From positions 496,001 through 560,000 of the forward strand of contig NZ_CP036498.1 of assembly GCF_018279705.1 (NCBI RefSeq): 64,000 bases of DNA. Reading direction: 5' to 3'. A program made the translations under genes and the position numbers. This stretch comes from Tardiphaga alba. GTDB lineage: Bacteria > Pseudomonadota > Alphaproteobacteria > Rhizobiales > Xanthobacteraceae. Numbering within the stretch: position 1 is the first letter of the stretch; every line of letters begins with the position of its first letter. The notes below the pieces were generated by a model. The model was not told the origin of the DNA and did not search any database. It saw only the letters and a list, made by a program, of their open reading frames with translations. Positions 13,740 through 31,390 of this stretch are shown here, in pieces.

Positions 13740-16700
13740 TCGCCCGCATCATCGCCTGGTCGGCGCGGAATCTACTGCTGGTGCTGTTCGGCACCGGCTT
13801 CGCGGCGGCCGCCGGCATCTACGCGCTCGTCCATCTTCCGCTCGACGCCATTCCCGACCTCTCGGACACCCAGGTGATCGTCTACACGGAGTATCCGGGC
13901 CAGGCGCCACAGGTGATCGAAGATCAGGTCACCTATCCGCTGACCACGGCGATGTTGACCGTTCCCAAGTCGAAGGTGGTGCGCGGCTTCTCGTTCTTCG
14001 GCGTCTCGTTCGTCTACGTCATCTTCGAGGACGGTACCGACATCTACTGGGCGCGGTCGAGGGTGCTCGAGTTCCTGAACGGTGCCGCCTCGCGCCTGCC
14101 TGCCGGCGTCACGCCGACGATGGGCCCGGATGCCACCGGCGTCGGTTGGGTCTACCAATACGCCGTCATGTCCAAGGAACTGAACCTTGCGGACACGCGT
14201 ACGATCCAGGACTGGAATCTGAAGTTCGCGTTGGCCAAGGCCGAAGGCGTCGCCGAGGTCGCCAGCGTCGGCGGCTTCGTGAAGCAGTACAACGTCGTCC
14301 TCGATCCGCTGCGGATGCGCGACCTCGGCATCACCATGCAGAAGATGCGCGATGCCATCCGTGCCAGCAACGCCGACGTCGGCGGCCGCACCGTGGAGCT
14401 CTCGGAATTCGAATACGTCATCCGCGGCAAGGGCTATCTGAAATCGATCAACGACCTCGGCAACGTCGTGCTGAAGACCAACAACGGTACGCCCGTTCTG
14501 CTGCGGGACGTCGCACGCGTCGAACTAGGTCCGGACGAGCGGCGGGGCATCACCGAACTAAACGGACAAGGCGAGGTCGCCAGCGGCATCGTGCTGCAGC
14601 GTTTCGGCGTCAATGCTCTCGATGTCATCGAGAACGTCAAGAAGCGCTTCAAGGAGGTCGCGAGCAGCCTGCCGAAGTCCGTGGAGATCGTGCCGGTCTA
14701 CGACCGCTCCGAGCTCATCAATGCCGCCATCGCGACCCTCAAGCACACGCTGCTCGAGGAAAGCGTGGTCGTTGCCCTCGTCTGCATCATCTTCCTGCTG
14801 CACGTCCGCAGCGCTTTGGTGGCCATACTCATGCTGCCCGTCGGCGTCCTGATGGCCTTCGGCGCCATGAAGCTGCTCGGGCTCGGCTCCAACATCATGA
14901 GCTTGGGTGGCATCGCCATCGCGATCGGCGCCATGGTCGATGCGGCCATCGTGATGATCGAGAACGCGCACAAGCATCTGGAGAAGGCGGCGACCGGCAA
15001 GTCACGTGTGGACGTCCTGATCGAGGCCGCGTCCGAGGTGGGCCCGTCGTTGTTCTTCAGCCTGCTGATCATCACCGTGTCCTTCATGCCGATCTTCACC
15101 CTGGAATCCCAGGAGGGGCGTTTATTCAGCCCGCTGGCGTTCACCAAGACGTTCGCAATGGCGGCCGCGGCAATCCTGTCGGTGACGTTGGTGCCCGCGC
15201 TGATGATCATCTTCGTCCGCGGCCGGATCGTTCCGGAACACAGGAATCCGATCAACCGCTTCCTGATCTGGATCTATCGGCCCGTCATCCAGGGCGTGCT
15301 GCGCGCCAAGACGTTTGTGATCGTGCTCGCGGTGGCCGTTCTCGCAGCCAGCGCCTGGCCTGCGAGCCGGCTCGGCACCGAGTTCATGCCCAGCCTGAAC
15401 GAGGGCACGCTTATGTACATGCCGACGACGTTACCCGGCATCTCGGTGACCAAGGCCGCCGAACTGATGCAGACCCAGAACAGGATCATCAAGACCTTCC
15501 CGGAGGTCGCCTCGGTCTACGGCAAGGCCGGCCGTGCGGCGACGGCGACCGATCCGGCACCTTCCGAAATGTTCGAGACCATCATCAATCTAAAGCCCAA
15601 GGAGGCGTGGCGGGCGGGCCTGACCGTCGATGCGCTGATAGCGGAGATGGACAAGGCGCTTCAGTTCCCCGGCGTCTCCAACGCTTGGACGATGCCCATC
15701 AAGGCCCGCATCGACATGCTATCGACCGGGATCCGGACGCCGATCGGGGTCAAGGTCATAGGCACGGACCTCGTGGAGATCGACCGGCTTGCAAAGCAGA
15801 TCGAGCAGATCCTCAAGACGGTCCCCGGAACGTCGTCGGCCTACGCCGAACGGGGCATCGGCGGCTACTATCTCGACGTGACTCCGGACCGAGAGGAGCT
15901 GGCGCGGTACGGCATCATGGTCCAGGACGTGCAGGACGTGATCGCGACGGCTCTGGGAGGACAGACCGTGACGACGACGGTGGAAGGGCGCCAGCGATTC
16001 ACCGTCAACATGCGGTATCCACGCGATCTGCGCGACAGCCCGCAGGCCATCGCCGGCGACGTGCTCGTTCCCATGCCCGCGGGAGGAGCCGTTCCCCTCG
16101 GAGAGGTCGCCAAGATCTCGCCGGCCAGAGGACCGACGTCGATCCGGACCGAGAACGGTCAGTTGGCGACATACATCTACGTCGACATCCGCGATCGCGA
16201 CCTGGGCGGCTACGTGGCCGACGCACAGCGTGCCGTCCAAGCCAGCGTCCAGTTTCCGCCCGGCTACTACGTGATGTGGAGCGGCCAATACGAATATCTC
16301 GAACGTGCCACCGCACGCCTCAAGATTGTCGTCCCGGTGACGCTACTCATCATCTTCCTGCTGTTGTATCTGAACTTCCGATCGATCTCCGACACGCTGA
16401 TCGTCATGCTGTCGCTGCCGTTCGCTCTGGTCGGCGGCCTTTGGCTGATGTGGTGGCTGGGCTTCAATCTTTCGGTGGCTGTCGCTGTCGGCTTCATCGC
16501 GCTCGCCGGCGTGGCCGCCGAGACCGGCGTCGTGATGCTCATGTACCTGAACCAGGCCTTGGCCGCTCGGCAGGCGCAGCGGGACCGCGAGGGGCGGCCA
16601 CTGACGCGTAACGACGTGTACGACGTCGTCATGGAAGGTGCCGTCGAGCGCGTCCGCCCCAAGATGATGACCGTCGTGGCCATCATGGCTGGGCTGCTCC

Positions 16701-16949: not shown

Positions 16950-18160
16950 CTAGAAGGTAAGGCCGTCTACCGTGGTGTACCGCACGTCCGTCACGTCTTC
17001 CATAGACCATCCCTTGTAGGAAAGCACGAATGGCTCCGCATCGCCCACGAAACCGTCGCGGTTGAGGATAGCGATATTGCGGTTATCCGTCTTTTCGTCG
17101 CGGTGTACGGCCGATCGATAGATGATCGCGTCGCAACCGAAGAACGACTTGAGATACTCCGCGACGATCTGCGTCGCGATGTACTCGCGCTGACGTTCGT
17201 GCGGACGGACGGGCCTGCTGATCTCGGTCTGCAGTTGGGTGATGAAATCGTATCGGCTGTGTTCGACGAAGTGCCGGCGGTCTTCCGCTCGTTCATCGAA
17301 AACCGTGAAGTCGAAGACCTTGAGGGGCACGCGGGTGGTGAAAGTCCCGATCGCGATCGAGTCGCCGATACTGGGTCGAAGTTCGGCTACTACGGTTGCC
17401 TTCGAAAAGGCAGCATAGAACACCGGAATGAATTCGACATTCATCCTGCCGCCCTGCGTCCGCTCGGCCGGGGCGCCCCGAGCTTCGCCGCTCCGCTCGC
17501 ATTGAGCGCCTCTTCGGTGAGATCGTCTCGCATGAGGCGGGCTCGGTACAGGACCTGGGAAGACGCGAGTTCGTACAGCGGCTTCACAGGCCCTTCGCCG
17601 TACTCCGCGGGTTCGCCGAACAGTTCGTCGAGCTTCTGCTTGATGCCGAAGAAGCGTGAGGAGAACTGCACCCGCCTGCAGAAATCCTCCCATTCGAAGA
17701 AATATCTCCTAGAGAACCAATACTCGTCCTGATCGGCCTTCTCTCGGGCCCGCGCCGCCTCGATGAGCTCAAAGTTGTGCGCGTCGGTGTAGTAGGCCTC
17801 GGCTCCCTTGGAGATATCCCTGTCCGAGACGTCCGGAAGTGCCGCAATCACCGCATCCGTCACGTCGTCGGAAGCTCCAAGTTCCTCCTCGAAGATCTCC
17901 TCAAAAGGCTGCCCCTCAGTCCCGTAATAAACGCGGTCGCTGTCGGGATCGCTGTCGACCTGGTACGTCTCGCCTCCGGGCTGATAGTTCGCCTGAAACC
18001 ACCGATCGGCCTCTTCGGCCAATTCCTCGATCGTCACGCACGCGACTGATCGGTGGTCCGCATCGAAATCGCAATCGTCCGTAGCGCCGTTTTCTTCGAT
18101 CCAGCCGCGAAGCGTTCCATCGGTGAGGCAGAGGGCACAGACGTTTCGATCCTCATCCAT
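16950..18160 (-). CDS. HEPN/RES-type protein with C-terminal RES domain (one frameshift)
   Basis: Two overlapping frames form one gene of about 403 residues when one base is restored in the G/C run at 17470-17473. The N terminus (CALCLTDGTLRGWI, acidic region to about 200) resembles the domain found before RES domains in long RES proteins. The RES domain then runs LYRAR ... LGAPPAERTQGGRMN ... FIPVFYAAFSKATVVAELRP. RES domains are NAD+-degrading toxins in type II toxin-antitoxin pairs, but the long two-domain form is usually not paired with a Xre antitoxin and none is seen here. A role in defence or stress is plausible. It lies directly downstream of the SRAP gene (6-bp gap). Confidence 0.7.
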
Positions 18161-18166
18161 TGTCGG

Positions 18167-18889
18167 CTAATCCTCGCGCGGTCCGTCGGACTTCCCGCCC
18201 CGTGCCACGATCTTCAGCTTCCCGTCCGGCAGGGGGCGTTGCAATGTGCATGCCTCGTCCCAGGGTGCGCGCATCCACAAATCGATCTCTGCGGGGTTAG
18301 TCAGGATGACCGGCATCGCTGTGGGATGGATGGCTCTCAGCTCGGCGTTGGGGTCCGTCGTCAGAAAGGCGAACAGATCGTTGGTGGTCTCGCCCTCGCG
18401 CACCTTCCGGACGGATGTCCAATTCGTCCACATGCCGGCGAAGCAGACGAGGGGCCGGGTTTCGTCGAGGGCGAACCAGACGTCGCCGCCGGCGACCTTG
18501 TTGAATTCGCTGAACGACGACATCGGAACGATGCACCGGTTCTCGACGCCGAGCCATCGCTTCCAATGTTTGCTCGACGTGTTGCGGATGTTGGTCGTCC
18601 CGCTGTCGGGCTCCATCCGCAGGAGTTCCTTGAAGTCGAATTGCTTGCCCTTTGCCTCCAGCTTCGCCGCCCGCTTGGCAGTGGCGTCCATCAGCGCCTT
18701 CTGCGACGACGGCATGCCCCACCGGGCCATGGTCAGCTCGCGTCCACCGTCGCGGTTCCGGACGATAGGCGCCTGGTAGTCAGGGAAGATGCCGGGCATG
18801 GACGGCAGGTTGCCGATGCGGTCATGGGTGACGGCGAAGAGCTGCCGGATCGCGGCCTGGTTCTTGGTCATTGAGTAGAGATTGCACAC
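18167..18889 (-). CDS. SOS response-associated peptidase family protein (SRAP/YedK)
   Basis: This 240-residue SRAP protein forms and resolves thiazolidine crosslinks with abasic sites in single-stranded DNA. Catalytic Cys2 follows the start Met (MCNLYS), and the family signatures are [22 protein letters not shown] and the active-site His in [11 protein letters not shown]. Length and motif order are normal. It is followed on the same strand by the RES gene and preceded by small genes on the same strand, an arrangement that suggests an island-borne stress/repair group. Confidence 0.9.
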
Positions 18890-21001: not shown

Positions 21002-22012
21002 ATGAAACTTCGGCTAAGCTTACTTGTGCTGATGCAAGATCCCGTCACCCACAACGCAGTCCGTTTCCTTGAGACGCTAAGGCGATCGGATCTATCCGCG
21101 CTGCTATTTCATGCCGAGATCACCGTAGGCACGACTGGGACGTCGCTCGTCGTGGTCGTACGATCGCCACGACCATTTTCGGACGCGCTGGAGGTCCTGC
21201 CCCCGCATGATCGCCAAAGAATTGCCCAGGCGGCCGTCAGCAATCGCCCGAGTGCGCGCGCGCCTGCGGATATCATCGTTAGACATGTGGGGGACGTCAT
21301 CGACGGCCATGGCGCCCTCCTGCCCGATCTGATCATTCACCGCGACATGATGATTTCGGTCGCGACGGGCGGGCGCACTATTCAGGATGTCGACGACTAC
21401 TACGTCGCTCGCCAGGTGTGGATTTCTGACGCCTGCGCAGCCGCCGGAATTGCGTACGAAAACCCGCACAACGGGCTGTGGGAATGGTACAATTTCTGGA
21501 AGGCACACTTCGCGACTTATGCCGAACGTCGCGAATACGTTCGCAAACTGTTTGCAGCTCCGATAGCAGCGGCGTCCGCAAGGATCGCGTCTCCGAGCCC
21601 CGTATCGGAGCGCGAGCCGACAGGCTGGGAGCGCGTCGACCGCGCGTTGGGCAACGCCAAAACCCAGCTCGCCAGGGCTTCGACGGAAGAAGAATGGCAG
21701 GCCGTTGGCCTGGTTTGCCGCGAGGTCTTAATCTCGCTTGCTCAAGCGGTTTTCGATCCCGAGGTCCATCAACCGACAGACGGCATAGCGCCCAGCGCAA
21801 CCGATGCGAACCGGATGACGGAGGCCTACCTGCAGCACGTCTTTCCGGGCGAAAGCTACAAGGAAGTTCGCGGGCACGCCCGCGCCGCACTCGCACTTGC
21901 GCTGAACCTGCAGCACCGTCGCACCGCGACACGCCAACTGGCGGCCCTATGCCTGGAAGGCACATCGTCGGCGGTCGCAGTGATTTCGATCATCGCCGGG
22001 CGGACGGTATGA
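21002..22012 (+). CDS. Unknown protein 1 of a three-gene group next to the island end
   Basis: This protein of about 336 residues has two parts. The N-terminal region (about 1-205) is unrecognised. The C-terminal region (about 215-336: EEEWQAVGLVCREVLISLAQ ... RGHARAALALALNLQHRRTA) is an all-helical module of a type that recurs at the end of otherwise different accessory proteins. The ATG at 21002 is used; a TTG two codons upstream and an ATG at 21032 are alternatives, none with a strong ribosome site. It is the first of three same-strand unknown genes that end near the tRNA-Ser scar, a common location for defence genes. Confidence 0.6.
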   Translation: MKLRLSLLVLMQDPVTHNAVRFLETLRRSDLSALLFHAEITVGTTGTSLVVVVRSPRPFSDALEVLPPHDRQRIAQAAVSNRPSARAPADIIVRHVGDVIDGHGALLPDLIIHRDMMISVATGGRTIQDVDDYYVARQVWISDACAAAGIAYENPHNGLWEWYNFWKAHFATYAERREYVRKLFAAPIAAASARIASPSPVSEREPTGWERVDRALGNAKTQLARASTEEEWQAVGLVCREVLISLAQAVFDPEVHQPTDGIAPSATDANRMTEAYLQHVFPGESYKEVRGHARAALALALNLQHRRTATRQLAALCLEGTSSAVAVISIIAGRTV

Positions 22013-22105
22013 TGCAGGAGGGAATGAAGTCGAGACATACGTCTATCGGCACGGTCAGGCGTTTGAAGGGTGTGGTTGCCGATACGACGTTGGGGAGATG
22101 ACATC

Positions 22106-23107
22106 GTGAATCCTAAAGCACCTTCGCTTTATGCCCGCATTCAGGCGCATGGTACGCTGACCGAGAGTCCCCGCGACGTGCCAGACGCCCGTTTCGCGTT
22201 GCCCTCGACGATCAATTGGATGCGCGCGCTGGCGATTCTTTGCGGGGATCGCGGCGTCGATTTCGCGACAGCGAAAGTCTTCTACGTGAAGACGCAGGCA
22301 CGGCAGATGCCGGAAGCCGAAGTCAATACCGTTTCGGAGCAGCTCCTGTTCGCGCTGAACCAGATCGCAGCCTTGCGGGCCATGTCCGCGGCTCCCAACA
22401 AGGCGGATGTCGCCAGAGCCGCCATCATCGCTTGGTACTACGGCGTCTACAGCGCCGCATCGGCGATGACCGCCGCAATGGACGGATCCTTTCAGGACAA
22501 TCACACAGAGACGGCACGCAAGTGGGACGAGCGATTTCCCGCGAACGGCATGGCGATGGCTCCGTTTGCCGATCGCCTCACGAACCTGGTTTCCGACAAC
22601 ATAAAGGCCGAACTCGCACCGTTGAAATCCAGAGGCGTGCATTCTCTGGTCAACAAGCCGACCGAGCCTTCGGAGGCAGGGGGCTGCTGCACTGAGTATC
22701 TTTCCGGCACCGCACGGTGGCAGCAGTGGAATGTCGACGAACGGATCAAGGCAGGACGGCAGTTCAAGGAACTAGGAGTTGCTGATTTCCGGACGAAGGC
22801 AGCCCGCGAGATCCGGGATGCCGCTTATGCAAAGAATGGCATAGCCTTCCTGCATCAGGCTTCCAGGTATCGAACAAAGGCAAACTATCGAGACGCGATC
22901 TTTCTCGCCTACGGGGTGTCTGTTCCAGCGTTGCTGACGGACTTCGTCGAAGATCTTATGGTTGTGCTGGAGGCATTCGCGGCGATGGCCGGAGGCTACT
23001 GTTCGGTCAGATTGGGACGTGCCAGATGGGACGAGTTCGTCGGCGACCTCGAGCTCAAGCGAGCGGTTTCGGTGTCACCAAACGATATTTGGCCCCGCGC
23101 GGGGTAA
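22106..23107 (+). CDS. Unknown protein 2 of the three-gene group (HEPN-like helix)
   Basis: This 333-residue protein starts at GTG 22106, preceded by GGGGAG at 8 nt; the frame is open to 22070 but without a better site. The segment RAAIIAWYYGVYSAASAMTA, with a following DNHTETARKWD, resembles the helical core of HEPN-like proteins (A-x-x-A-x-Y-Y-x-x-Y-x-A). A late helical part (YRDAIFLAYGVSVPALLTDF) lies near residue 270. No RxxxxxH nuclease motif is obvious. Function unknown; the pattern suggests an accessory or defence role. Confidence 0.55.
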   Translation: MNPKAPSLYARIQAHGTLTESPRDVPDARFALPSTINWMRALAILCGDRGVDFATAKVFYVKTQARQMPEAEVNTVSEQLLFALNQIAALRAMSAAPNKADVARAAIIAWYYGVYSAASAMTAAMDGSFQDNHTETARKWDERFPANGMAMAPFADRLTNLVSDNIKAELAPLKSRGVHSLVNKPTEPSEAGGCCTEYLSGTARWQQWNVDERIKAGRQFKELGVADFRTKAAREIRDAAYAKNGIAFLHQASRYRTKANYRDAIFLAYGVSVPALLTDFVEDLMVVLEAFAAMAGGYCSVRLGRARWDEFVGDLELKRAVSVSPNDIWPRAG

Positions 23108-23120
23108 GAAGGAGGCCGGT

Positions 23121-23732
23121 GTGGCGCAGCATGAATCCTTCGATGCCATTCTGAACCGCGAATTCAGATGGCCCAGAGCCGGCGATCTGCCGTTCACTCA
23201 ATCCAAGGACTGGAGCGCCAACGCCTATATCGATCGCCAAGGCCACGGCCGTCTTGTCCTGATGATCATGGGATACAAGAAGGCAGCGGATTTGATGGTC
23301 GAAAAGGCAAATGAAGAGCGGATCGACCGCGACACGCTCATCTTTCCGATCATGTTTAACTATCGTCAGTTTATCGAACTGTCCTTGAAGCACTTGATTT
23401 CACAGTACGGTCCAACGGTGGGCATCGCCGCCAACTGGCAGAGCCACGACCTGCATTTCCTTTGGAAGGTGTTCGTCGATGTTCTGACCGACTACGGACA
23501 CGGGGCCCAGGAGGAGGCGGATACGGCTGTCGCAAGCATCATCACCGAATTCGCCAAGGTCGATCCGAACTCGTTTTCCTACCGATACCCGGTCGACCGC
23601 CAGGGTCGCCCCATCCTGCTGCCGAGCCAAGGAGTGGATCTCACCGCGCTTTCGGACGTCATGAAGGGCGTCGACGGCTACTTCACCGGCTGTGACGGGT
23701 ATCTCGATCATCTGCAGAGCGCCGGCCCGTGA
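23121..23732 (+). CDS. Unknown protein 3 of the three-gene group (HEPN-like)
   Basis: This 203-residue protein starts at GTG 23121 with GGAGG 5 nt upstream, 13 bp after the preceding gene. The core IFPIMFNYRQFIELSLKHLI followed by HDLHFLWKVF is characteristic of a helical family with a conserved YRQxxELxLKH motif, similar in outline to HEPN proteins. The longer frame to 22962 overlaps the previous gene and is rejected. It ends the group 127 bp before the tRNA-Ser fragment. Function unknown. Confidence 0.6.
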   Translation: MAQHESFDAILNREFRWPRAGDLPFTQSKDWSANAYIDRQGHGRLVLMIMGYKKAADLMVEKANEERIDRDTLIFPIMFNYRQFIELSLKHLISQYGPTVGIAANWQSHDLHFLWKVFVDVLTDYGHGAQEEADTAVASIITEFAKVDPNSFSYRYPVDRQGRPILLPSQGVDLTALSDVMKGVDGYFTGCDGYLDHLQSAGP

Positions 23733-24585
23733 TCCGCGTTTATTCGTGTGGCCGGCGGCCGGCAAAGGTGGTACACAATGGTGGTCGCAAACAGTCATCT
23801 GCCTTTGCAGGAATGCCGGATTTCTTGGGGTTTTCGCTAGGACGACGTTTCGGATTGAGGAATCCCCCCCTCTCCGCCAGCCAGCCTGAAAAGCTCATAT
23901 TTTTCAAAATCATCTGATCGGCCGCCATCCGCGTCCAGCTTGGACGCGTGGTGGCGCTGTATGGCTGTTTCCGCGGCGACGTCATCCGCGATGGCAGGGC
24001 GGTGCCAGCAAAACTTGCGGTCGCCGTATGACCCCACGGGGGGCGGCTGTAGAAGCTTGGTGTGGATCCCGGTCGCTGTGGCGGAGAGCAGTCCTTCACG
24101 CTTCGCGGGCAGCATTCGCAGGCCGTGCGTCAGATGGCGTGAGGCGTCGTGCCATGTCCTCATCTTGACGGAGTTGCCGCGTTTTCCGCCGGTGTCCAGA
24201 ACGCACAAGTGAACAATCCATCAAAAGCTTTGGTGTCGTTACGGTGCGCATCGTTGCGTCGATCCGTTCTGTCCGTGCGATGGATGCGAGGTCGCGGTCG
24301 CAATCATCAAATTGGTGCGTGAGCGAGTGGCGCTTGATGTTTGAGATGTTGTTAAACGCGCACTCCAGTTGATATCGTCCGGCCTTTGTTCAGCCGTGAG
24401 TGACCCTAGAATGTGTATCAGCACGATTTCAGGATCAGGACCCGTGGACTTGGAAAACCAGAAGCGCAATAGTTTAGCGTCTGTCCGAAGATAACGCTTC
24501 CTTCAAATTGAGGATTACTTTGGTCTTCTTGGCAGGCAATTTCAGTTGGCGCTCCGAAGGCGCTATTTTTTCAAGGGAGAATATT
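23733..24585. other. Gene-free stretch holding the island end and the lasso-cluster leader region
   Basis: These 853 bases contain no frame I can support. Several frames of 90-123 codons exist on both strands but have low-complexity or biased composition and mutually overlap. The stretch contains the tRNA-Ser 3'-end match (23860-23879). Towards its right end an AT-richer region precedes the precursor gene and probably holds its promoter; no clear -35/-10 pair is evident. Confidence 0.5.
23860..23879 (+). other. Putative attachment site: 3' end of a tRNA-Ser gene
   Basis: GAATCCCCCCCTCTCCGCCA matches, apart from about one base, the T-loop-to-CCA end of alphaproteobacterial tRNA-Ser genes (typically GAATCCCACCCTCTCCGCCA). 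No D-arm, anticodon arm or 5' acceptor strand precedes it, so it is only a 3' fragment. Integrases that target tRNA genes leave such a fragment at the far end of the element. Its orientation puts the element to the left (the metal-resistance region) and native chromosome to the right. Confidence 0.5.
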
Positions 24586-24699
24586 GTGAAGAAGTATGAG
24601 AAGCCCGCTCTTGTTCAACTCGGCAAGATGGATCTGATCAAGTCGAATTCGACCGGTCCGAGCACCGACGGCAAGAAGTATTCCGGCTTTTTCAAGTAA
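24586..24699 (+). CDS. Lasso peptide precursor (A protein)
   Basis: A 37-residue gene with GTG start and an ideal AGGGAGA ribosome site. The leader has the lasso recognition pattern Y-x2-P-x-L-x3-G (YEKPALVQLG, residues 4-13) that the B1 domain binds. The C-terminal part is SNSTGPSTDGKKYSGFFK. Asp28 is the only acidic residue after the leader and so the only possible isopeptide acceptor. Rings of 7-9 residues then place core residue 1 at Ser22, Asn21 or Ser20, not the usual Gly, and no Thr falls at position -2 for any of them (Ser20 would if the core starts at Ser22). A hairpin follows the stop, then the exporter gene. Confidence 0.8.
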   Translation: MKKYEKPALVQLGKMDLIKSNSTGPSTDGKKYSGFFK

Positions 24700-24709
24700 G
24701 TAGCCGAAT

Positions 24710-24737
24710 GCGACATGCCGTTTGTGCGGCATGTCGC
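24710..24737 (+). terminator. Hairpin between precursor and exporter genes
   Basis: GCGACATGCCG and CGGCATGTCGC form a perfect 11-bp stem with a 6-nt loop, 10 nt after the precursor stop. No U-run follows. Such hairpins in RiPP operons usually act as partial terminators or 3' stabilisers, so that the short precursor mRNA is more abundant than the enzyme mRNA. Confidence 0.65.
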
Positions 24738-24876
24738 GCTTTCCCTGGAAGACTGTAGTTAGCGAACAGCCTGCTTTGGCGAGGCCATGGACTATGTTTG
24801 CGTTGGTGAATGATTCAAAATCCGGGCTTTCGCCCCTCCGGGATCGCGAGATGCCCACGCGGCGCGATGTCCGTTA

Positions 24877-26718
24877 ATGGTCTGGTTGCGGCGTCCGGTC
24901 ATCACTGCTCCGCCACCGCCGGCGGTCCCGCCGGCCTCATTGTTCGGCTTTTGCTACTATTTTCTCGCCGAGCATCGCACGATTTTTCTTTGGCTTTTCC
25001 TTTGTGGCCTCGGCGTCGCCTGTGCAGACGCGCTCGTGGCCGTGTTTATCGGGAAGATGGTGGGCTTCGTCGGGCAGGCCGATCGCTGGGCCGCCTGGCA
25101 TGAGCGCTGGCCGGTCCTGCTCATCCTGCTGCTCGTGATCGGTTTGGTCCGGCCATTCGTTATCTGGATCGATCTGCGCCTGAGAAACGCCTTTCTCATT
25201 CCCGGTGTCACCTCGCGCATGCGCTGGATCAGCTATTGGCGCGTCACGCGTCAGAGCTGGAGCTTCTTTCAGGGAGATTCGCCGGGCCGGCTTGCGCACT
25301 GGGTCATGCAGACACCCGGGGCGCTACGCGAAGTGGCCGAAGCCACGATCCGTGCCGTTTGGTATCTGTCGATGTATGGCCTGATGAGCATGGTGTTGCT
25401 CGGAAGCGCCGACTGGCGTCTGACCTTGCCGGTTCTGGCATGGTTCGCCGGATTCGCGCTGCTTCTGCGTGCTTTCGTGCCGCGTTTGCGGAGCAGGGCC
25501 GACGAGAATGCCGAGCGATATTCCCGCCTGATGGCGGAGCTGGTCGATGCCTACGGAAATATTCTGACCGTCAAGCTGTTTGGCGTGGCGGCGACGGTGG
25601 ATGGGCCGGTTCGCAAGGCACTGCTGGCGCATGACGACGCGCAGGCCCGCCATATGGAAATCGTCACCGGCTTCATGACGCGGCTCACGCTTCTCAATAC
25701 CATGCTTCTGCTGGGAACAGCGGCGATCGGTGCGTTCCTTTGGCTGCATCAGGCGATTTCGGCGGAAGCCGTTGCCATGGCGCTACCGCTGGTCTGGCAG
25801 GTCGCCAATACCGGTGGCTGGGTCGCCTGGGAAGTCGCCGGCATCTACCAAAATCTCGGTGAAATCCGGCAAGGAATGTCGGTGATCGCGGCGCCCAATG
25901 ACAGGACAGACGACGACGCGGCACCATCCCTTGAAGCAAAGCGGGGGCGCGTCGCTTTCGACCGGATCAGCTTCGGATACGCCAACCGGCCGCCCGTTTT
26001 TCAGAACTTTAGTCTCGACATAGCTCCGGGGGAAAAACTCGGCATCGTTGGCCGATCTGGCGCCGGAAAATCCACGCTGGTGGCGCTACTCCTGCGGCTC
26101 GTGGATATACAGTCCGGCACTATCCGTATCGACGGGCAGGATATTCAGACGGTGTCTGCAGAGAGCCTGCGCGCGCGGATTGGCGTTGTCACGCAGGATG
26201 TCTCGCTGTTTCACCGCTCGATCCGCGACAATCTTCTTTGCGGCAAGCCCGATGCATCGGATGCAGAGTTGCTGGATGCGCTGGATCGCGCGCAGGCATC
26301 AGCGTTCGTTGCTGCCATCAAGGATGAGGACGGCCATGGCGGCCTCGATGCCATCGTGGGGGAGCGCGGCGGCAAGCTCTCGGGCGGACAGAGGCAGCGC
26401 CTGATGCTCGTTCGGGCGCTGATCAAGGATGTGCCCATCGTCATCCTCGATGAGGCGACATCTGCGCTCGACAGCGAGGCCGAGCAGGCGATCGGTGCCG
26501 AGCTGGACACGTTGCTGGCAGACAAGACCGTGATTAGCATCGCTCACCGGCTGTCGGCATTGGTGCGCATGGACCGCATTCTGGTCATCGACGAGGGCCG
26601 CGTGATCGAGCAGGGCACCCACAGCGGGCTGCTGTCACAGAATGGACTCTATGCGCGACTCTGGCGTCAGCAGACTGCGATGTCGCACGACGACGTGACG
26701 CTCTCGCCAATCAATTAG
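24877..26718 (+). CDS. ABC exporter of the lasso cluster (D protein)
   Basis: This 613-residue half-transporter has an N-terminal six-helix membrane domain (about 20-340) fused to an ATPase: Walker A GRSGAGKST, Q loop VVTQDVSLF, signature LSGGQRQRLM, Walker B VILDEATSAL and H-loop SIAHRLSAL. No C39 leader peptidase domain is present, consistent with leader removal by a separate B2 enzyme. In lasso clusters this D protein exports the mature peptide and gives immunity. It lies 177 bp after the precursor and 23 bp before B1. The ATG at 24877 has a weak ribosome site; a start a few codons downstream cannot be excluded. Confidence 0.9.
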   Translation: MVWLRRPVITAPPPPAVPPASLFGFCYYFLAEHRTIFLWLFLCGLGVACADALVAVFIGKMVGFVGQADRWAAWHERWPVLLILLLVIGLVRPFVIWIDLRLRNAFLIPGVTSRMRWISYWRVTRQSWSFFQGDSPGRLAHWVMQTPGALREVAEATIRAVWYLSMYGLMSMVLLGSADWRLTLPVLAWFAGFALLLRAFVPRLRSRADENAERYSRLMAELVDAYGNILTVKLFGVAATVDGPVRKALLAHDDAQARHMEIVTGFMTRLTLLNTMLLLGTAAIGAFLWLHQAISAEAVAMALPLVWQVANTGGWVAWEVAGIYQNLGEIRQGMSVIAAPNDRTDDDAAPSLEAKRGRVAFDRISFGYANRPPVFQNFSLDIAPGEKLGIVGRSGAGKSTLVALLLRLVDIQSGTIRIDGQDIQTVSAESLRARIGVVTQDVSLFHRSIRDNLLCGKPDASDAELLDALDRAQASAFVAAIKDEDGHGGLDAIVGERGGKLSGGQRQRLMLVRALIKDVPIVILDEATSALDSEAEQAIGAELDTLLADKTVISIAHRLSALVRMDRILVIDEGRVIEQGTHSGLLSQNGLYARLWRQQTAMSHDDVTLSPIN

Positions 26719-26741
26719 CCATTTTGCAGAAAGGAATTTTG

Positions 26742-27005
26742 ATGCGCATCGAATTGACGCCCGGCACCAGCCTTACGACCATCGAAGGAAAAAGCGTGCT
26801 GTTCTCGGTCCGGACGGGGGAGTCCTACGGGCTTAACGACACCGCAGCGGAGATGCTGAAGCGCGGGCTGGAAGGTGGCGTCGATCACGCTGTCGCGTGG
26901 TTCGCTGAGAACTATGACGCGCCCGCCGCAGAGATCCGGAGCGACATCGACGAACTCACGCGCGACCTCGTGCGTGTCAAGCTGGCTCGGATTGTTGCAG
27001 GCTGA
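26742..27005 (+). CDS. Lasso leader-binding protein B1 (PqqD-like RRE)
   Basis: This 87-residue PqqD-like protein is a stand-alone RiPP recognition element: three beta strands then helices (SVLFSVRTGESYGLNDTAAE, followed by DIDELTRDLVRVKLA). In lasso biosynthesis it grips the YxxPxL leader motif and presents the precursor to B2. The ATG at 26742 is chosen for its AAAGGA ribosome site; an in-frame ATG at 26724 is 6 codons upstream. Its 3' end overlaps, tail to tail, the last 29 bp of the B2 gene on the other strand. Confidence 0.9.
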   Translation: MRIELTPGTSLTTIEGKSVLFSVRTGESYGLNDTAAEMLKRGLEGGVDHAVAWFAENYDAPAAEIRSDIDELTRDLVRVKLARIVAG

Positions 27006-27381
27006 GGCCCGGCCATGGATCATAGGTGGCTACGACGGTGAAGTCCTCCATTCCCGGTGTCGTCACGAACATGTCGGTGCCGCAGGTCACCCAGGCATGG
27101 CCGGATAGTGGCGACAGGCGCATGCCGATCCGGAGGGTTGCGGGATGGCCGTGACGGTTGAGGCTGAACCATACGACGATTGCCTGATCGAGACATTCGA
27201 TGCGCATCGGCAGAACATTCAGACCCTGCAGCGCTCGCGCGGCAATCGTCTGTGCGCTCAGGTCACCAGCGCGTGCGCCGGCTCTCATTCGTTCGCCCAC
27301 CCAGTGAAACATGCGGACAGTGCGGTCGATGCCCAACAGCTTCGTTGAAAAATGCGACAACGACAGAACTACGGCACTCAT
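26977..27381 (-). CDS. Lasso leader peptidase B2 (transglutaminase-like), opposite strand
   Basis: This 134-residue protein has the lasso B2 / transglutaminase-core-3 signature: catalytic Cys63 in IECLDQAIVVWFSLNRHG, IGMRL, and catalytic His95 in GHAWV. The third residue is probably a following Asp. It cleaves the leader so that the new N terminus can be joined to Asp28. Unusually, it is encoded against its partners. It converges with B1 (29-bp overlap) and diverges from C (about 60 bp between start codons). A GGGA ribosome site precedes its ATG. The arrangement requires a separate promoter between 27382 and 27441. Confidence 0.85.
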   Translation of the reverse strand: MSAVVLSLSHFSTKLLGIDRTVRMFHWVGERMRAGARAGDLSAQTIAARALQGLNVLPMRIECLDQAIVVWFSLNRHGHPATLRIGMRLSPLSGHAWVTCGTDMFVTTPGMEDFTVVATYDPWPGLSLQQSEPA

Positions 27382-27441
27382 CTCGATGCGTCCCTTCCCG
27401 ATCCATTCTTTACAGCTAACTGGCCTCGCCCGGGAGATGCA

Positions 27442-29241
27442 ATGACCACTTTAGACACTGGCGAGGCGGATCGGCCGATCGGCATGCGTGGTGACCCGAC
27501 GACGTCATCAATCGCGGTATCGCTGGCATGGCGTGAGGGGACGATCCAGATCGAAGGTATCGTTCAGAGGGTAGAAGGAGACGTTGGGCCAGAGGCATTG
27601 TTGCGTCTTGTCCAGATCGTCGATCGCGACGGCCCGGCGGCTCTGGCGCGTGTCGAAGGTGACTTCGTCGCGTTGGTGCGAGGACGAGACACCCTTCATG
27701 CCTTCAAGAGCTTTACATCGCAGTTCCAGATTTACTACCGGGAAGCCGACGGGCTGGTTGCCAATCGTTTGTTCGCCTTCTGGGATACAGCAACTACGGA
27801 GTGGAACGAGGACTATTTCGCGCGTCATGTCCTGATCGTGCCGGGCTATCAGTTCTTTTCGCAGGATACACCTCTCAAAGGTGTCCTGCGTGTCCGGCCC
27901 GGCGAGCTTGTGTCGATCGGCGCAAGCATGGCGCGCCAGCAACTCGTGCGTCGCAACTATGCCTATCTCCTTGATCCCGACCAGCGCCGCGAAGATGTGG
28001 CGGAGCGAGTACTCCATCTGCTGCGTGATGCGATCAAGACCCGGATCGCGGCGCGCCCCCATGCGCGCATCTGCGTCGAGATCTCGGGAGGGTTGGATTC
28101 GTCGTTCATTGCATGTTTGCTCGGCGAGCAGATATCGAGCGGCATCCGTGGCGTGATGTTCTCGCAGCCGAACCTGCCGTCGCACGCGGTCAGCGAGCGA
28201 TATGCACGCGATGTCGCAGACCGCTACGGCATTGACCTCACGGTGCTGCCCCCGGAGGCGCTTCCTGTCGGGACGCCGGACGTGCCCTGCTATTCGGACG
28301 AGCCCAGTGATTTTTTCTGGTTCGGTGACATCTTCTCGCGCGCGGTCGCAGAACTTGCGGAGCCGCATGCCTATGTTTTCACTGGCTTCGGCGCCGATCA
28401 GCTTTTTCTCCGCGCCCCGGCGTTTCTTCCCTATCTGCTGAAGCGCAAGGAATATCGTGCGTTCCGGAATGCTTTGCCGGAGGCAAGTCGGCTGTTGGCG
28501 CGAGGGCAGGTCAGCGTCGCCTGGCAAAGCCTCGTTTGCCAGCTTCCAGCTGAATTGCATCGCGCGCTGCAACAGAGCTGGCTCTCGCGCGGCTGGAATC
28601 CGTGGGATGTGAGCGACGTGAGCATGGAGCGTACGCTGACCAGCGACGTTCCATGGTTGCGATGTGGACGAAGCCTCACGCATTATTCGCTTGAACGGCA
28701 TCAGAACGAGACGGCCTTCGCTGGCAACGGAATTATCTGTGACGACTGGGGATATTTCTCGGCGCCGCGCGCGGTGACGCAACCGCATTTCGACAGCAAG
28801 TCGCTTGTCGATGCGTCGCCGTTCTGCGATCTGCCATTGCTCGATTTCGTCTACGATGACGTCAGCGCGTTGCTGATCCACGATTTTGGCGGGCGCTATA
28901 AGGAGCTGCTGCGCGAGGCTCAGAAAGGCGTCGTGCCGGAGGGTTTGCGTGCACGTCAGAACGATACGTTCGTCTTCAATTCATTTCAGATGAATTATGT
29001 GGATTCTGAAAAAGAGCGCCTCTTCGGTCTGCTTGACGAAGTTGACGAGGCATGGATCGACGTCAAAGGCGCGCGCTACGCACTTCAGCAGTTGTCATTC
29101 GGCGTCACATCGAGCTCGACGCGCTCCGTGGTGGCTCTGATGGGTTATCTGCAGTGGCGAAGATCATTCGTGGCGCATGCCATGGGGCCGCGGGATCACA
29201 ATTGCTATGGGCTTTTCCAGCAGAAGCGGGACTGGACATGA
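27442..29241 (+). CDS. Lasso cyclase C (asparagine synthetase-like)
   Basis: This 599-residue protein has a degenerate N-terminal glutamine-amidotransferase-like part without the catalytic Cys2 (about 1-180). A C-terminal AMP-forming synthetase domain follows, with PP-loop SGGLDSS at about residues 215-221. The family activates the Asp/Glu side chain as an adenylate and closes the macrolactam ring of lasso peptides. The ATG at 27442 is chosen for the GGGAG ribosome site 7 nt upstream; the frame is open to 27352, but that start would overlap B2. Its stop overlaps the start of the following nuclease-fold gene (ATGA at 29238-29241). Confidence 0.9.
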   Translation: MTTLDTGEADRPIGMRGDPTTSSIAVSLAWREGTIQIEGIVQRVEGDVGPEALLRLVQIVDRDGPAALARVEGDFVALVRGRDTLHAFKSFTSQFQIYYREADGLVANRLFAFWDTATTEWNEDYFARHVLIVPGYQFFSQDTPLKGVLRVRPGELVSIGASMARQQLVRRNYAYLLDPDQRREDVAERVLHLLRDAIKTRIAARPHARICVEISGGLDSSFIACLLGEQISSGIRGVMFSQPNLPSHAVSERYARDVADRYGIDLTVLPPEALPVGTPDVPCYSDEPSDFFWFGDIFSRAVAELAEPHAYVFTGFGADQLFLRAPAFLPYLLKRKEYRAFRNALPEASRLLARGQVSVAWQSLVCQLPAELHRALQQSWLSRGWNPWDVSDVSMERTLTSDVPWLRCGRSLTHYSLERHQNETAFAGNGIICDDWGYFSAPRAVTQPHFDSKSLVDASPFCDLPLLDFVYDDVSALLIHDFGGRYKELLREAQKGVVPEGLRARQNDTFVFNSFQMNYVDSEKERLFGLLDEVDEAWIDVKGARYALQQLSFGVTSSSTRSVVALMGYLQWRRSFVAHAMGPRDHNCYGLFQQKRDWT

Positions 29242-29645
29242 AATTGACGCACGCTCGCATCCTGTCCATCGGTCTGTTCGGCTGGCTTGTTGGCGTGGCT
29301 CCGACTGCTGCCGCAGACGTTCAAGTCATCGATGGTGGCTCGCTCGTTCTGAACGGCCGTACGGTTCGGCTTTGGGGGATCGAGGCGCCGCCCGCTACAG
29401 AGGTTTGCGTCACGACAAGCGGACGTTCCTGGCCATGTGGTCAACGTGCACATGCCGAGCTTCGGTCCGCTTTGCAGGACGGGGTGGTCGTCTGCCAGCC
29501 GAAAGCGCCCGGTTTTGAGGTGTGTCGCATTGCCGGCCTCGATGTCGGTGCCTTGCTGGTCAAGGAAGGCCTCGCCAAAGCGCGCGACGATTATCGGGAG
29601 CTCGAGGCGCGTGCCCGCCAGGCGCGTGTCGGGCTCTGGGAATGA
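29238..29645 (+). CDS. Secreted nuclease-fold (SNase-like) protein coupled to the lasso operon
   Basis: This 135-residue protein has a signal peptide (to about residue 27, TAAADV) and a staphylococcal-nuclease-type barrel (VQVIDGGSLVLNGRTVRLWG). Compared with active nuclease, Arg35-equivalent is kept (TVRLWG). The second calcium Asp is Gly (DGG), the Glu43 general base is Pro (EAPP), and no Arg87-type GR motif is visible, so catalysis by the classical mechanism is unlikely. ATGA overlap with the cyclase upstream and ATG overlap with the lipoprotein downstream place it in the lasso transcript. Its role there is unknown: periplasmic binding or immunity are possibilities. Confidence 0.75.
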   Translation: MKLTHARILSIGLFGWLVGVAPTAAADVQVIDGGSLVLNGRTVRLWGIEAPPATEVCVTTSGRSWPCGQRAHAELRSALQDGVVVCQPKAPGFEVCRIAGLDVGALLVKEGLAKARDDYRELEARARQARVGLWE

Positions 29646-29809
29646 TGTGCATCTCCCGAATCTTGCTGGGGATGCTGCTGATCGTATCGACCGGCGGCTG
29701 CACGTCGCGCATGATCAATGACCGGCACGATGCCTTCTGTCGGTTGCAAGGGACCGAGCCCGGCTCAAAGGCTTATTTCCAATGCCGTCTCAAAGAGGCG
29801 ATCAACTAG
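29642..29809 (+). CDS. Small lipoprotein-like protein at the end of the lasso operon
   Basis: This 55-residue protein overlaps the preceding stop codon. It has a hydrophobic N terminus ending STGGC, a weak lipobox, so membrane anchoring is likely. The rest (DAFCRLQGTEPGSKAYFQCR) follows a C-x-x-x-G ... PG ... YxxCR pattern of small alphaproteobacterial lipoproteins of unknown role. Its 3' end overlaps by 4 bp the gene on the opposite strand. Confidence 0.6.
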   Translation: MMCISRILLGMLLIVSTGGCTSRMINDRHDAFCRLQGTEPGSKAYFQCRLKEAIN

Positions 29810-30432
29810 GACGGTTGGTGTTCACCGGTCTCGCGATGCCGCATGTGGGAGCGGGCATCATCGGGCGTCGCAGGGAGCAAGGCCGCCCAGCGCAACTCGG
29901 TCTCGATCACCGGCCACGGTCCTGCGATCGTCGTGACGAATTCCGCAGTGTCTGCAGCGCTCTTCGGCAAGCTGATCCACAGCAGAAAGTGCCCGTTTCC
30001 GGTCCGTAGGGCAGCCCCGTCGTCTCCGAACCGTGCGTGAAAGCACGGTAGCGAGTCCCAATGCATGGGAAGCAGCGCTTGTTGCTGCAAAGGCAATTCC
30101 CGGCCTGTTCGAAACAGTCGTCGATACCAGGGCATGCGATCTCGAAGAGGCTTGCTAACAAGCGTTACAGCACCGGTCCGGGAAAGATACTCTATCGCAC
30201 GCCTCAACAGCTCTTCGGCAGCCCGGTCCCACGCAGCGTCATTATCTCCAAATAGGGTGAAACCAGCCTCCTTGAAGCAGACATCGTGGTTCACTGGAGC
30301 TGGCCAGACGGCCAATAGGCGGCAGTTGGGAAAAGCCATGGCCTTGGCATCGTCGGACGATACTGGCGACCAGTGGATCTGAAACGACGGCGGGATAGCA
30401 GGCTGCACGGGCGCCAGGATCGGACTTGCCAT
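29806..30432 (-). CDS. Hypothetical protein (208 aa), downstream of formamidase
   Basis: This soluble protein has no recognised family. It contains Trp-rich beta-like stretches (NCRLLAVWPAPVNHDVCF; GHFLLWISLPKSAADTAE). The ATG at 30432 was chosen because it lies 10 bp after the formamidase-like stop; the frame is open to 30528 inside that gene. It is probably co-transcribed with the enzyme and converges with the lasso operon. Confidence 0.55.
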   Translation of the reverse strand: MASPILAPVQPAIPPSFQIHWSPVSSDDAKAMAFPNCRLLAVWPAPVNHDVCFKEAGFTLFGDNDAAWDRAAEELLRRAIEYLSRTGAVTLVSKPLRDRMPWYRRLFRTGRELPLQQQALLPMHWDSLPCFHARFGDDGAALRTGNGHFLLWISLPKSAADTAEFVTTIAGPWPVIETELRWAALLPATPDDARSHMRHRETGEHQPS

Positions 30433-30442
30433 TAGTTGTGGG

Positions 30443-31390
30443 TCACCGCTTCGCTTGTGCGATGACGTCCAGCGGCAACACCACGTGAATGCTCTTCTCG
30501 ATATTGACGAGCTGGGTGACGCGGACATCGGCGGCGAGGCTACAGAGCATGTAGGCGTCTTCTGCCGACAGCGTCGTCCGGGCGACGATCATCGCCACCA
30601 TGCGGCGGAGCGCGATGCGGGCGGCTTCGTCCAGATCGGGATCGAAGGCCATTGTGATCAGGTGATCCTTCGTCTCGGCATAGGGCGCTTCGAGCTTCGC
30701 GTTCTTGACGAGGTCGATCTTGAAGGTGCCGGTGAGGCCGGTCTCGACCGCAGTGACGCAGACTTCGCCATCGCCTTGCACGGCGTGTCCGTCACCGCAG
30801 GAGAACAGCCCGCCTACGGTCCAGACCGGAAGATAAAGCACGCTGCCGGCACCGAGCTCCTTGTTGTCGATATTGCCGCCGAAATGCGATGGCATGGTCG
30901 AGGAGGCGCGGCCGACCTCCGGCTTCGGCGCGGTACCCATCACGCCGAAGAAGGGCTGCGCCTTCAGCGTGATGCCCCATGGCGTCTTGACGATGTTGTT
31001 GGTGCGGTCGAGCCCGATATGGATGCGGCGGAAATAGTCGAAATCGTCGGGCAGGGTACCCATGCCCGGGCGGAACAGCATGTAGCCCCAGTCATCGGCG
31101 AGCTGGACATCCTGGATCTCGATGCGCAGCGCATCGCCGGGTTCGGCGCCGCGCACGGCCACCGGGCCCGTCAGAATATGCGGTCCGAGATCGGGTTTTA
31201 CGGAGGCGATAACGGCCAGCAGTTCCGGGCGCGGCGTCATGCTGGCGTCTGTCGGGAGGTGGTCCTGATTGCCGCTGACGCTGGTCATGACGACTGTCTC
31301 GCCAGGCTCGATGGTGGCGATCGGCGCCTGTTTGGCGTCGAAATAGCCCCAATGCACGGTGGCGGGTGTCGGCTGAATGGTCTGCGTCAT
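30443..31390 (-). CDS. Acetamidase/formamidase family protein
   Basis: This 315-residue enzyme of the FmdA/AmdA family hydrolyses short amides to ammonia and a carboxylate. Typical stretches are TVHWGYFD near the start, MPSHFGGNIDNKELGAGS and LFSCGDGHAVQGDGEVC. The ATG at 31390 gives the family N terminus; the longer frame to 31504 is not conserved-looking. It is convergent in map order with the lasso operon and divergent from the ABC-F gene. Downstream lies a 208-residue unknown in the same direction. Confidence 0.85.
   Translation of the reverse strand: MTQTIQPTPATVHWGYFDAKQAPIATIEPGETVVMTSVSGNQDHLPTDASMTPRPELLAVIASVKPDLGPHILTGPVAVRGAEPGDALRIEIQDVQLADDWGYMLFRPGMGTLPDDFDYFRRIHIGLDRTNNIVKTPWGITLKAQPFFGVMGTAPKPEVGRASSTMPSHFGGNIDNKELGAGSVLYLPVWTVGGLFSCGDGHAVQGDGEVCVTAVETGLTGTFKIDLVKNAKLEAPYAETKDHLITMAFDPDLDEAARIALRRMVAMIVARTTLSAEDAYMLCSLAADVRVTQLVNIEKSIHVVLPLDVIAQAKR

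Follow-up and report, generated by a model that had tools for sequence, protein, structure and literature searches.

A probable lasso-peptide gene cluster with a reversed leader-protease gene and a near-invariant core in Tardiphaga alba

The window analysed here is a stretch of 64,000 nucleotides, part of a one-contig genome of 5.86 Mb. Between positions 24586 and 29241 it holds five genes, four of them (A, D, B1, C) on the forward strand and one, B2, on the reverse strand. The sequence-only reading had proposed a 37-residue precursor, an ABC exporter, a PqqD-like B1, a B2 and a cyclase, and all five are where that reading had put them. Gene A, encoding the precursor (24586..24699, +), was called from its open reading frame, which starts with GTG, and from its ribosome-binding site (AAGGGAG, 24573-24579). 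Its product comprises a leader, VKKYEKPALVQLGKMDLIK (24586-24642, +), and, with the boundary favoured below, a core, SNSTGPSTDGKKYSGFFK (24643-24696, +). The predicted YxxPxL-x3-G leader is present as YEKPALVQLG, although its match to the DUF5972 leader model is weak (18.5 bits, below the cut-off of 22.6). Asp28 is invariant and becomes core residue 9, 8 or 7 if the core starts at residue 20, 21 or 22, respectively. A lasso precursor requires a leader and a core with Asp or Glu at positions 7-9, and A has both. A small stem followed by a T run lies at 24551-24569, directly before the ribosome-binding site. A hairpin there was noted by eye in several loci and was rejected, since over the 14 family loci its energies stood out from dinucleotide shuffles no more than those of a control stretch (mean z of -0.82 versus -0.62 for the control).

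Gene D (24877..26718, +) encodes an ABC exporter of 613 residues, with both PF00005 and PF00664 above cut-off. In agreement with the earlier claim that isopeptidase and TonB receptor genes are missing, no Pfam match to a TonB receptor or S9 peptidase was found among the 29 window proteins scanned, a subset of the window's open reading frames; on these proteins the cluster is of the exporter type. Gene B1 (26742..27005, +) encodes a PqqD-like leader-binding protein (PF05402, 42.4 bits, cut-off 23.4). The lasso PqqD model is the top match for B1 in 8/8 relatives, and the window B1 reaches 41 bits with it, below the cut-off of 70. Its best PDB relatives are TfuB1 (6jx3, E 4.5e-7) and TbiB1 (5v1u, E 2.2e-5), ahead of PqqD. 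Gene B2 (26977..27381, -) encodes the putative leader protease, which passes the cut-offs of NF033537 (70.9 bits, cut-off 33) and PF13471 (65.8 bits, cut-off 26); NF033537 is also the sole NCBIfam family matched by B2 in 8/8 relatives. The Cys63 and His95 pointed out in the sequence-only reading are invariant in all 32 aligned B2 proteins, as is Asp113, whose assignment as the catalytic Asp is putative. A search by sequence found no PDB relative of B2.

Gene C (27442..29241, +) encodes an asparagine-synthetase-like cyclase above the PF00733 cut-off (63.4 bits, cut-off 21). Its SGGLDSS motif, as first read, is invariant in 26/26 aligned relatives. The starts used for C are our choice, with an ATG at the matching place in 8/8 relatives. 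The family cyclases match three models in 8/8 cases, and the window C stays below the cut-off of each: the NCBIfam generic asparagine synthase (62.4 bits, cut-off 267.1), the albusnodin/ikarugamycin-type cyclase (56.2 bits, cut-off 300) and the lasso cyclase (26.1 bits, cut-off 525). Profile searches against other families, proposed earlier as a check, therefore bore out the lasso assignment for B1 and B2, which score best with lasso models, but not for C, which scores best with the generic asparagine synthase and reaches none of these cut-offs. A single weak PDB relative of C was found (E 0.0042). In a tree of 44 cyclase sequences, which included 33 of the 37 control cyclases described below (four far from B2 were left out), the eight family cyclases form a single clade (support 100) on a long stem. 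This clade falls beside 15 cyclases of other lasso loci with weak support (54). The best PF00733 match elsewhere in the genome falls apart from the family cyclases, long rows being placed unsurely; one of the three other PF00733 places in the genome was missed by the motif. By these profile scores, C is the weak member among the lasso machinery parts.

Seven loci were recovered from 84,980 species genomes in one scan and were assigned to Xanthobacteraceae, Afipia, Beijerinckiaceae, three Bradyrhizobium and one Azonexus MAG. Matches came from 14 of 323 genomes of the taxonomic family: that of the window, two known beforehand, five new ones with six loci of the cluster family between them, and six weak relatives. 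Overlapping samples of the order (397 genomes), the phylum (398) and the Azonexus order (300) yielded one weak match (G247) besides the window and Azonexus genomes. Of the 18 genomes of the genus (11 of them at least 90% complete), only the window's own gave a match to C. Given so few matches, the cluster is patchy in sequenced genomes. Plasmid carriage was considered and rejected, the cyclase having one match, at 27.0% identity, in 72,556 plasmid records. Among proteins the distribution is broader: B2 matched 190 clusters at E ≤ 1e-5 (120 among the matches listed) and the cyclase 144 at E ≤ 1e-20 (120 among the matches listed). Sixty-five precursor clusters, one of them identical to the window's A, were found via shared 5-residue words, a route that favours conserved cores. 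The precursor names include Afipia carboxidovorans and a Polyangiaceae MAG (Myxococcota), and the cyclase names include Orrella (Betaproteobacteria). In the NCBI annotation some B2 proteins are named as lasso B2, the cyclases are called 'asparagine synthase' and the Afipia carboxidovorans precursor is 'hypothetical', so that annotation detects the cluster only partly. Clusters of lassopeptide type were reported in Afipia genomes in 2025, without description in the passage concerned (PMC12282010), and members of the family may therefore already have been flagged.

The family counts refer to 14 loci; L026 and L027, whose contigs equal those of L003 and L004 in length, were taken as identical to them and dropped, and the weak B2 relatives L034-L040 were kept apart. 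A is conserved in all 14. In the seven named relatives (7/7), 37-residue precursors 70-92% identical to A stand beside the same gene kinds, and the cluster is for this reason more than a chance coincidence. D and C are each present in 13 loci (D is absent from L005, C from L028), and B2 is broken in L029. One genome, G974, carries two family copies: L028, with A, D, B1 and B2 and no C in the fetched 15 kb, and L029, with A, D, B1, C and the broken B2. A nuclease-like reading frame (29238-29645; PF00565, 22.0 bits, cut-off 21) and a lipoprotein-like one (29642-29809) follow C, as the sequence-only reading had it. Both exist, but of 13 family loci L003 alone shares them, which rules them out as core cluster genes.

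B1 and B2 are convergent, and the 3' end of B2 overlaps B1 by 29 nt in the window and by 14-56 nt in 13/13 loci with an intact B2. B2 and C are divergent, with starts 60 nt apart in the window and 48-88 nt apart in the 12/12 loci where both are intact. Of the order first proposed, A-D-B1-(B2 reversed)-C, the reversed B2 is general: it lies between B1 and the place of C, opposite to whichever of B1, D and C are present, in 14/14 loci. The position of A is not, since A lies upstream of D on the same strand in five loci (the window, L003, L004, L028 and L030), and the remaining nine have it downstream of C, on the opposite strand. On a tree of 13 cyclases the A-upstream form requires one change (97/98); with the root placed on Azonexus (L008), which is our choice, the window's gene order looks derived.

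As a control, the lasso B2 model was run in 398 genomes and gave 59 other B2 places outside G000, all of which were fetched, some being cut by contig ends. An SGGxDS reading frame was present in the fetched region of 37 of these and was on the strand of B2 in 30 and opposite in seven; the 22 without one are not among the 37. A PqqD-like reading frame occurred in 35/59 places, within 1.5 kb of B2 in 28, and all 28 were on the same strand as B2. B2 reversed between B1 and C was found in 0/37 control loci. The reversed-B2 layout is real and is conserved in the family. Two other lasso loci, L089 and L093, have a B2 divergent from C in another gene order, a YxxPxL precursor and a B1 about 4 kb off on the strand of C; with a lone reversed B2 in both, such a reversal is rare and not unprecedented.

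Microcin J25-like ABCD clusters are likewise of the exporter type, and their A is sometimes on the opposite strand, as in the window's family; unlike the window's cluster, they have a fused B and are not known to have a YxxPxL leader. The split-B systems with PadeB1/B2 of paeninodin, TfuB1 and TbiB1 resemble the window's cluster in their separate PqqD-like B1 and B2 and their YxxPxL leader, and differ from it in that the window C stands far from the lasso cyclase models. For paeninodin, B2 cleavage is described as requiring B1, and a figure legend gives the construct order C-A-B1-B2-D (PMC5067487); in the window B2 is reversed between B1 and C. The bsf cluster of Bradymonas sediminis (PMC10368454) shares B1, B2, C, D and, under a cut before Ser20, an Ile(-2) leader with the window's cluster. 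Its core has Gly1-Asp8 with Tyr at -17, against Ser1-Asp9 with Tyr at -16 favoured here. It also has a kinase and a nucleotidyltransferase, neither of which was matched among the reading frames scanned in the cluster span; the in-cluster kinase that marks bsf-type phosphorylated lasso peptides was thus not found among them. Metanodin (PMC12670498) has Asn as first ring residue, as the window's product would under a cut before Asn21, and differs in a classical A-B-C layout and Thr at -2.

The predicted core is kept almost letter for letter. Numbering Ser20 as 1, residues 2, 4-7, 9, 10, 13, 15, 17 and 18 are invariant in 65/65 precursor clusters, that is, 11 of 18 positions across 21 distinct cores; the Azonexus core, outside the 65, has Ala at position 12. 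Over the 14 loci, the core has a pN/pS of 0.14, compared with 0.28 for the leader, and synonymous differences amount to 0.55-0.63 per site. By this measure the core is under stronger purifying selection than the leader, and the two figures together favour selection over recent copying. In 13/13 loci, core residues 8 and 14 are either T and S or S and A. The two residues change together in 4/4 independent changes, too few for significance (p 0.125), and the pairing fits 53 of the 65 clusters and not the other 12. Mined lasso peptides usually vary in their core from species to species. A core so nearly invariant points to a single fixed target or receptor, a possibility that one peptide would suffice to test. 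The product had been called new from the sequence, and this is consistent with a literature search in which four core fragments and one locus tag were not found in open-access papers, most subscription papers lying outside that coverage.

We favour a cut after Lys19 (LIK/S), with somewhat better than even confidence. It would give an 18-residue core with a ring between Ser1 and Asp9, Ile18 at -2 and Tyr at -16. Two points speak for this cut: residue 20 is restricted to S, A and G (58, 4 and 3 of 65), which are usual first residues, and there are two precedents for Ile(-2). One precedent is biochemical, BsfA being called the first experimentally validated Ile(-2) precursor (PMC10368454), and the other is the control precursor of L040, with LIR before GPMLETYWD. 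The same paper states that YxxPxL always spans -17 to -12, with Tyr at -17 (PMC10368454), and the Tyr at -16 is one residue short of this. The Polyangiaceae precursors, with Asn or Ser before Ile, also fit this cut less well. Thr (rarely Ile or Val) at -2 and Tyr at -17 cannot both hold in A.

The second possibility, which we hold at a substantial minority chance, is that B2 cuts after Ser20 (IKS/N), leaving the 17-residue core NSTGPSTDGKKYSGFFK with a ring between Asn1 and Asp8. Tyr would then keep the -17 position reported as constant (PMC10368454), and Lys or Arg would stand at -2. Family precursors have this Lys or Arg six residues after the leader Gly, with the invariant Ile one residue earlier. 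In control precursors the place six after Gly is held by Thr in 12/13 cases and by Ile in one (L040); these 13 were judged genuine by eye among 22 rows, nine being dropped, and six of the 13 are near-copies of one genus. Lys at -2 occurs in none of the 13. Metanodin offers a ring beginning with Asn and nonetheless has Thr at -2 (PMC12670498). A seven-residue ring would start at residue 22; we consider it the least likely, because that position is occupied by His, Ala, Ser or Pro (29, 24, 11 and 1 of 65). The two usual rules give bonds one residue apart, so that the family offers a clean test of how a lasso protease chooses its cut.

Whichever of these cuts is used, we read the five genes as a lasso-peptide cluster of a coherent, undescribed family, with a probability of about 0.85, and as probably an undescribed branch of a known natural-product class. 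The assignment follows from a B2 that passes the curated lasso B2 cut-off, a B1 nearest to lasso B1 proteins, an A with leader motif and invariant Asp, and the recurrence of the same gene kinds together in 14 loci, three of them incomplete as listed above; the scores of C below the lasso cyclase cut-offs, its single weak PDB relative and the lack of a PDB match for B2 by sequence speak against it. It agrees with the sequence-only reading: an exporter-containing lasso cluster in an unusual arrangement is also the interpretation that we prefer. By analogy with the class, B1 would bind the YxxPxL leader and hand the precursor to B2, a putative cysteine protease, which would cleave off the leader. 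C would then use ATP to activate the Asp side chain, and the macrolactam would be closed on the new N-terminus, with the tail threaded and trapped in the ring. D would export the product, presumably as a secreted peptide, and may protect the producer.

That C diverges from the lasso cyclase models and sits on a long branch would also suit a related product in which B2 cuts and C closes the ring to give a branched cycle instead of a lasso, threading being invisible in sequence; the lasso-type B1 and B2 and the joint changes at core residues 8 and 14 (4/4, p 0.125), such as a ring-tail contact might cause, make this unlikely. Decay of the cluster, with no product made in the window's genome, is very improbable: of the two G974 copies, one is without C and B2 is broken in the other, C was found in no other of the 18 genus genomes and the locus lies at a synteny break, yet the five window genes all have open reading frames, B1 and B2 still overlap in 13/13 loci with intact B2 and the core pN/pS is 0.14 over 14 loci. 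The lasso assignment can be extended, tentatively, to a conserved-core lasso peptide ranging from Alpha- and Betaproteobacteria to Myxococcota and held by purifying selection for a fixed target or a conserved signal, unlike diversifying lasso bacteriocins. Its maturation would depart from one of two reported rules, with either Ile(-2) and a leader short by one residue or Asn1 preceded by Lys(-2), and the conserved convergent B1/B2 overlap would let the protease be expressed separately from its substrate-binding partner. Taken as a whole, this extended reading falls a little short of even odds.

The cluster sits at a rearrangement point. Similarity to three genomes (G001, G004 and G014) begins at 30442-30448, at the 3' end of a formamidase gene, and a gene that lies near formamidase in G001 is found at 3.45 Mb in the window's genome. 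Across 22000-30447 of the window, the GC skew reverses at about 22 kb, and a break in synteny with three genus genomes lies at about 30447. A repeat of about 78 bp lies beside the formamidase gene of G001 (L042, about 14170-14247), and about 40 short matches to it are scattered over the window's genome. No defence gene beside the cluster was matched by PADLOC in the four reading frames scanned. Upstream of the cluster, genes for a RES-domain protein (16950-17693, -) and an SRAP-family protein (18167-18889, -) were observed.
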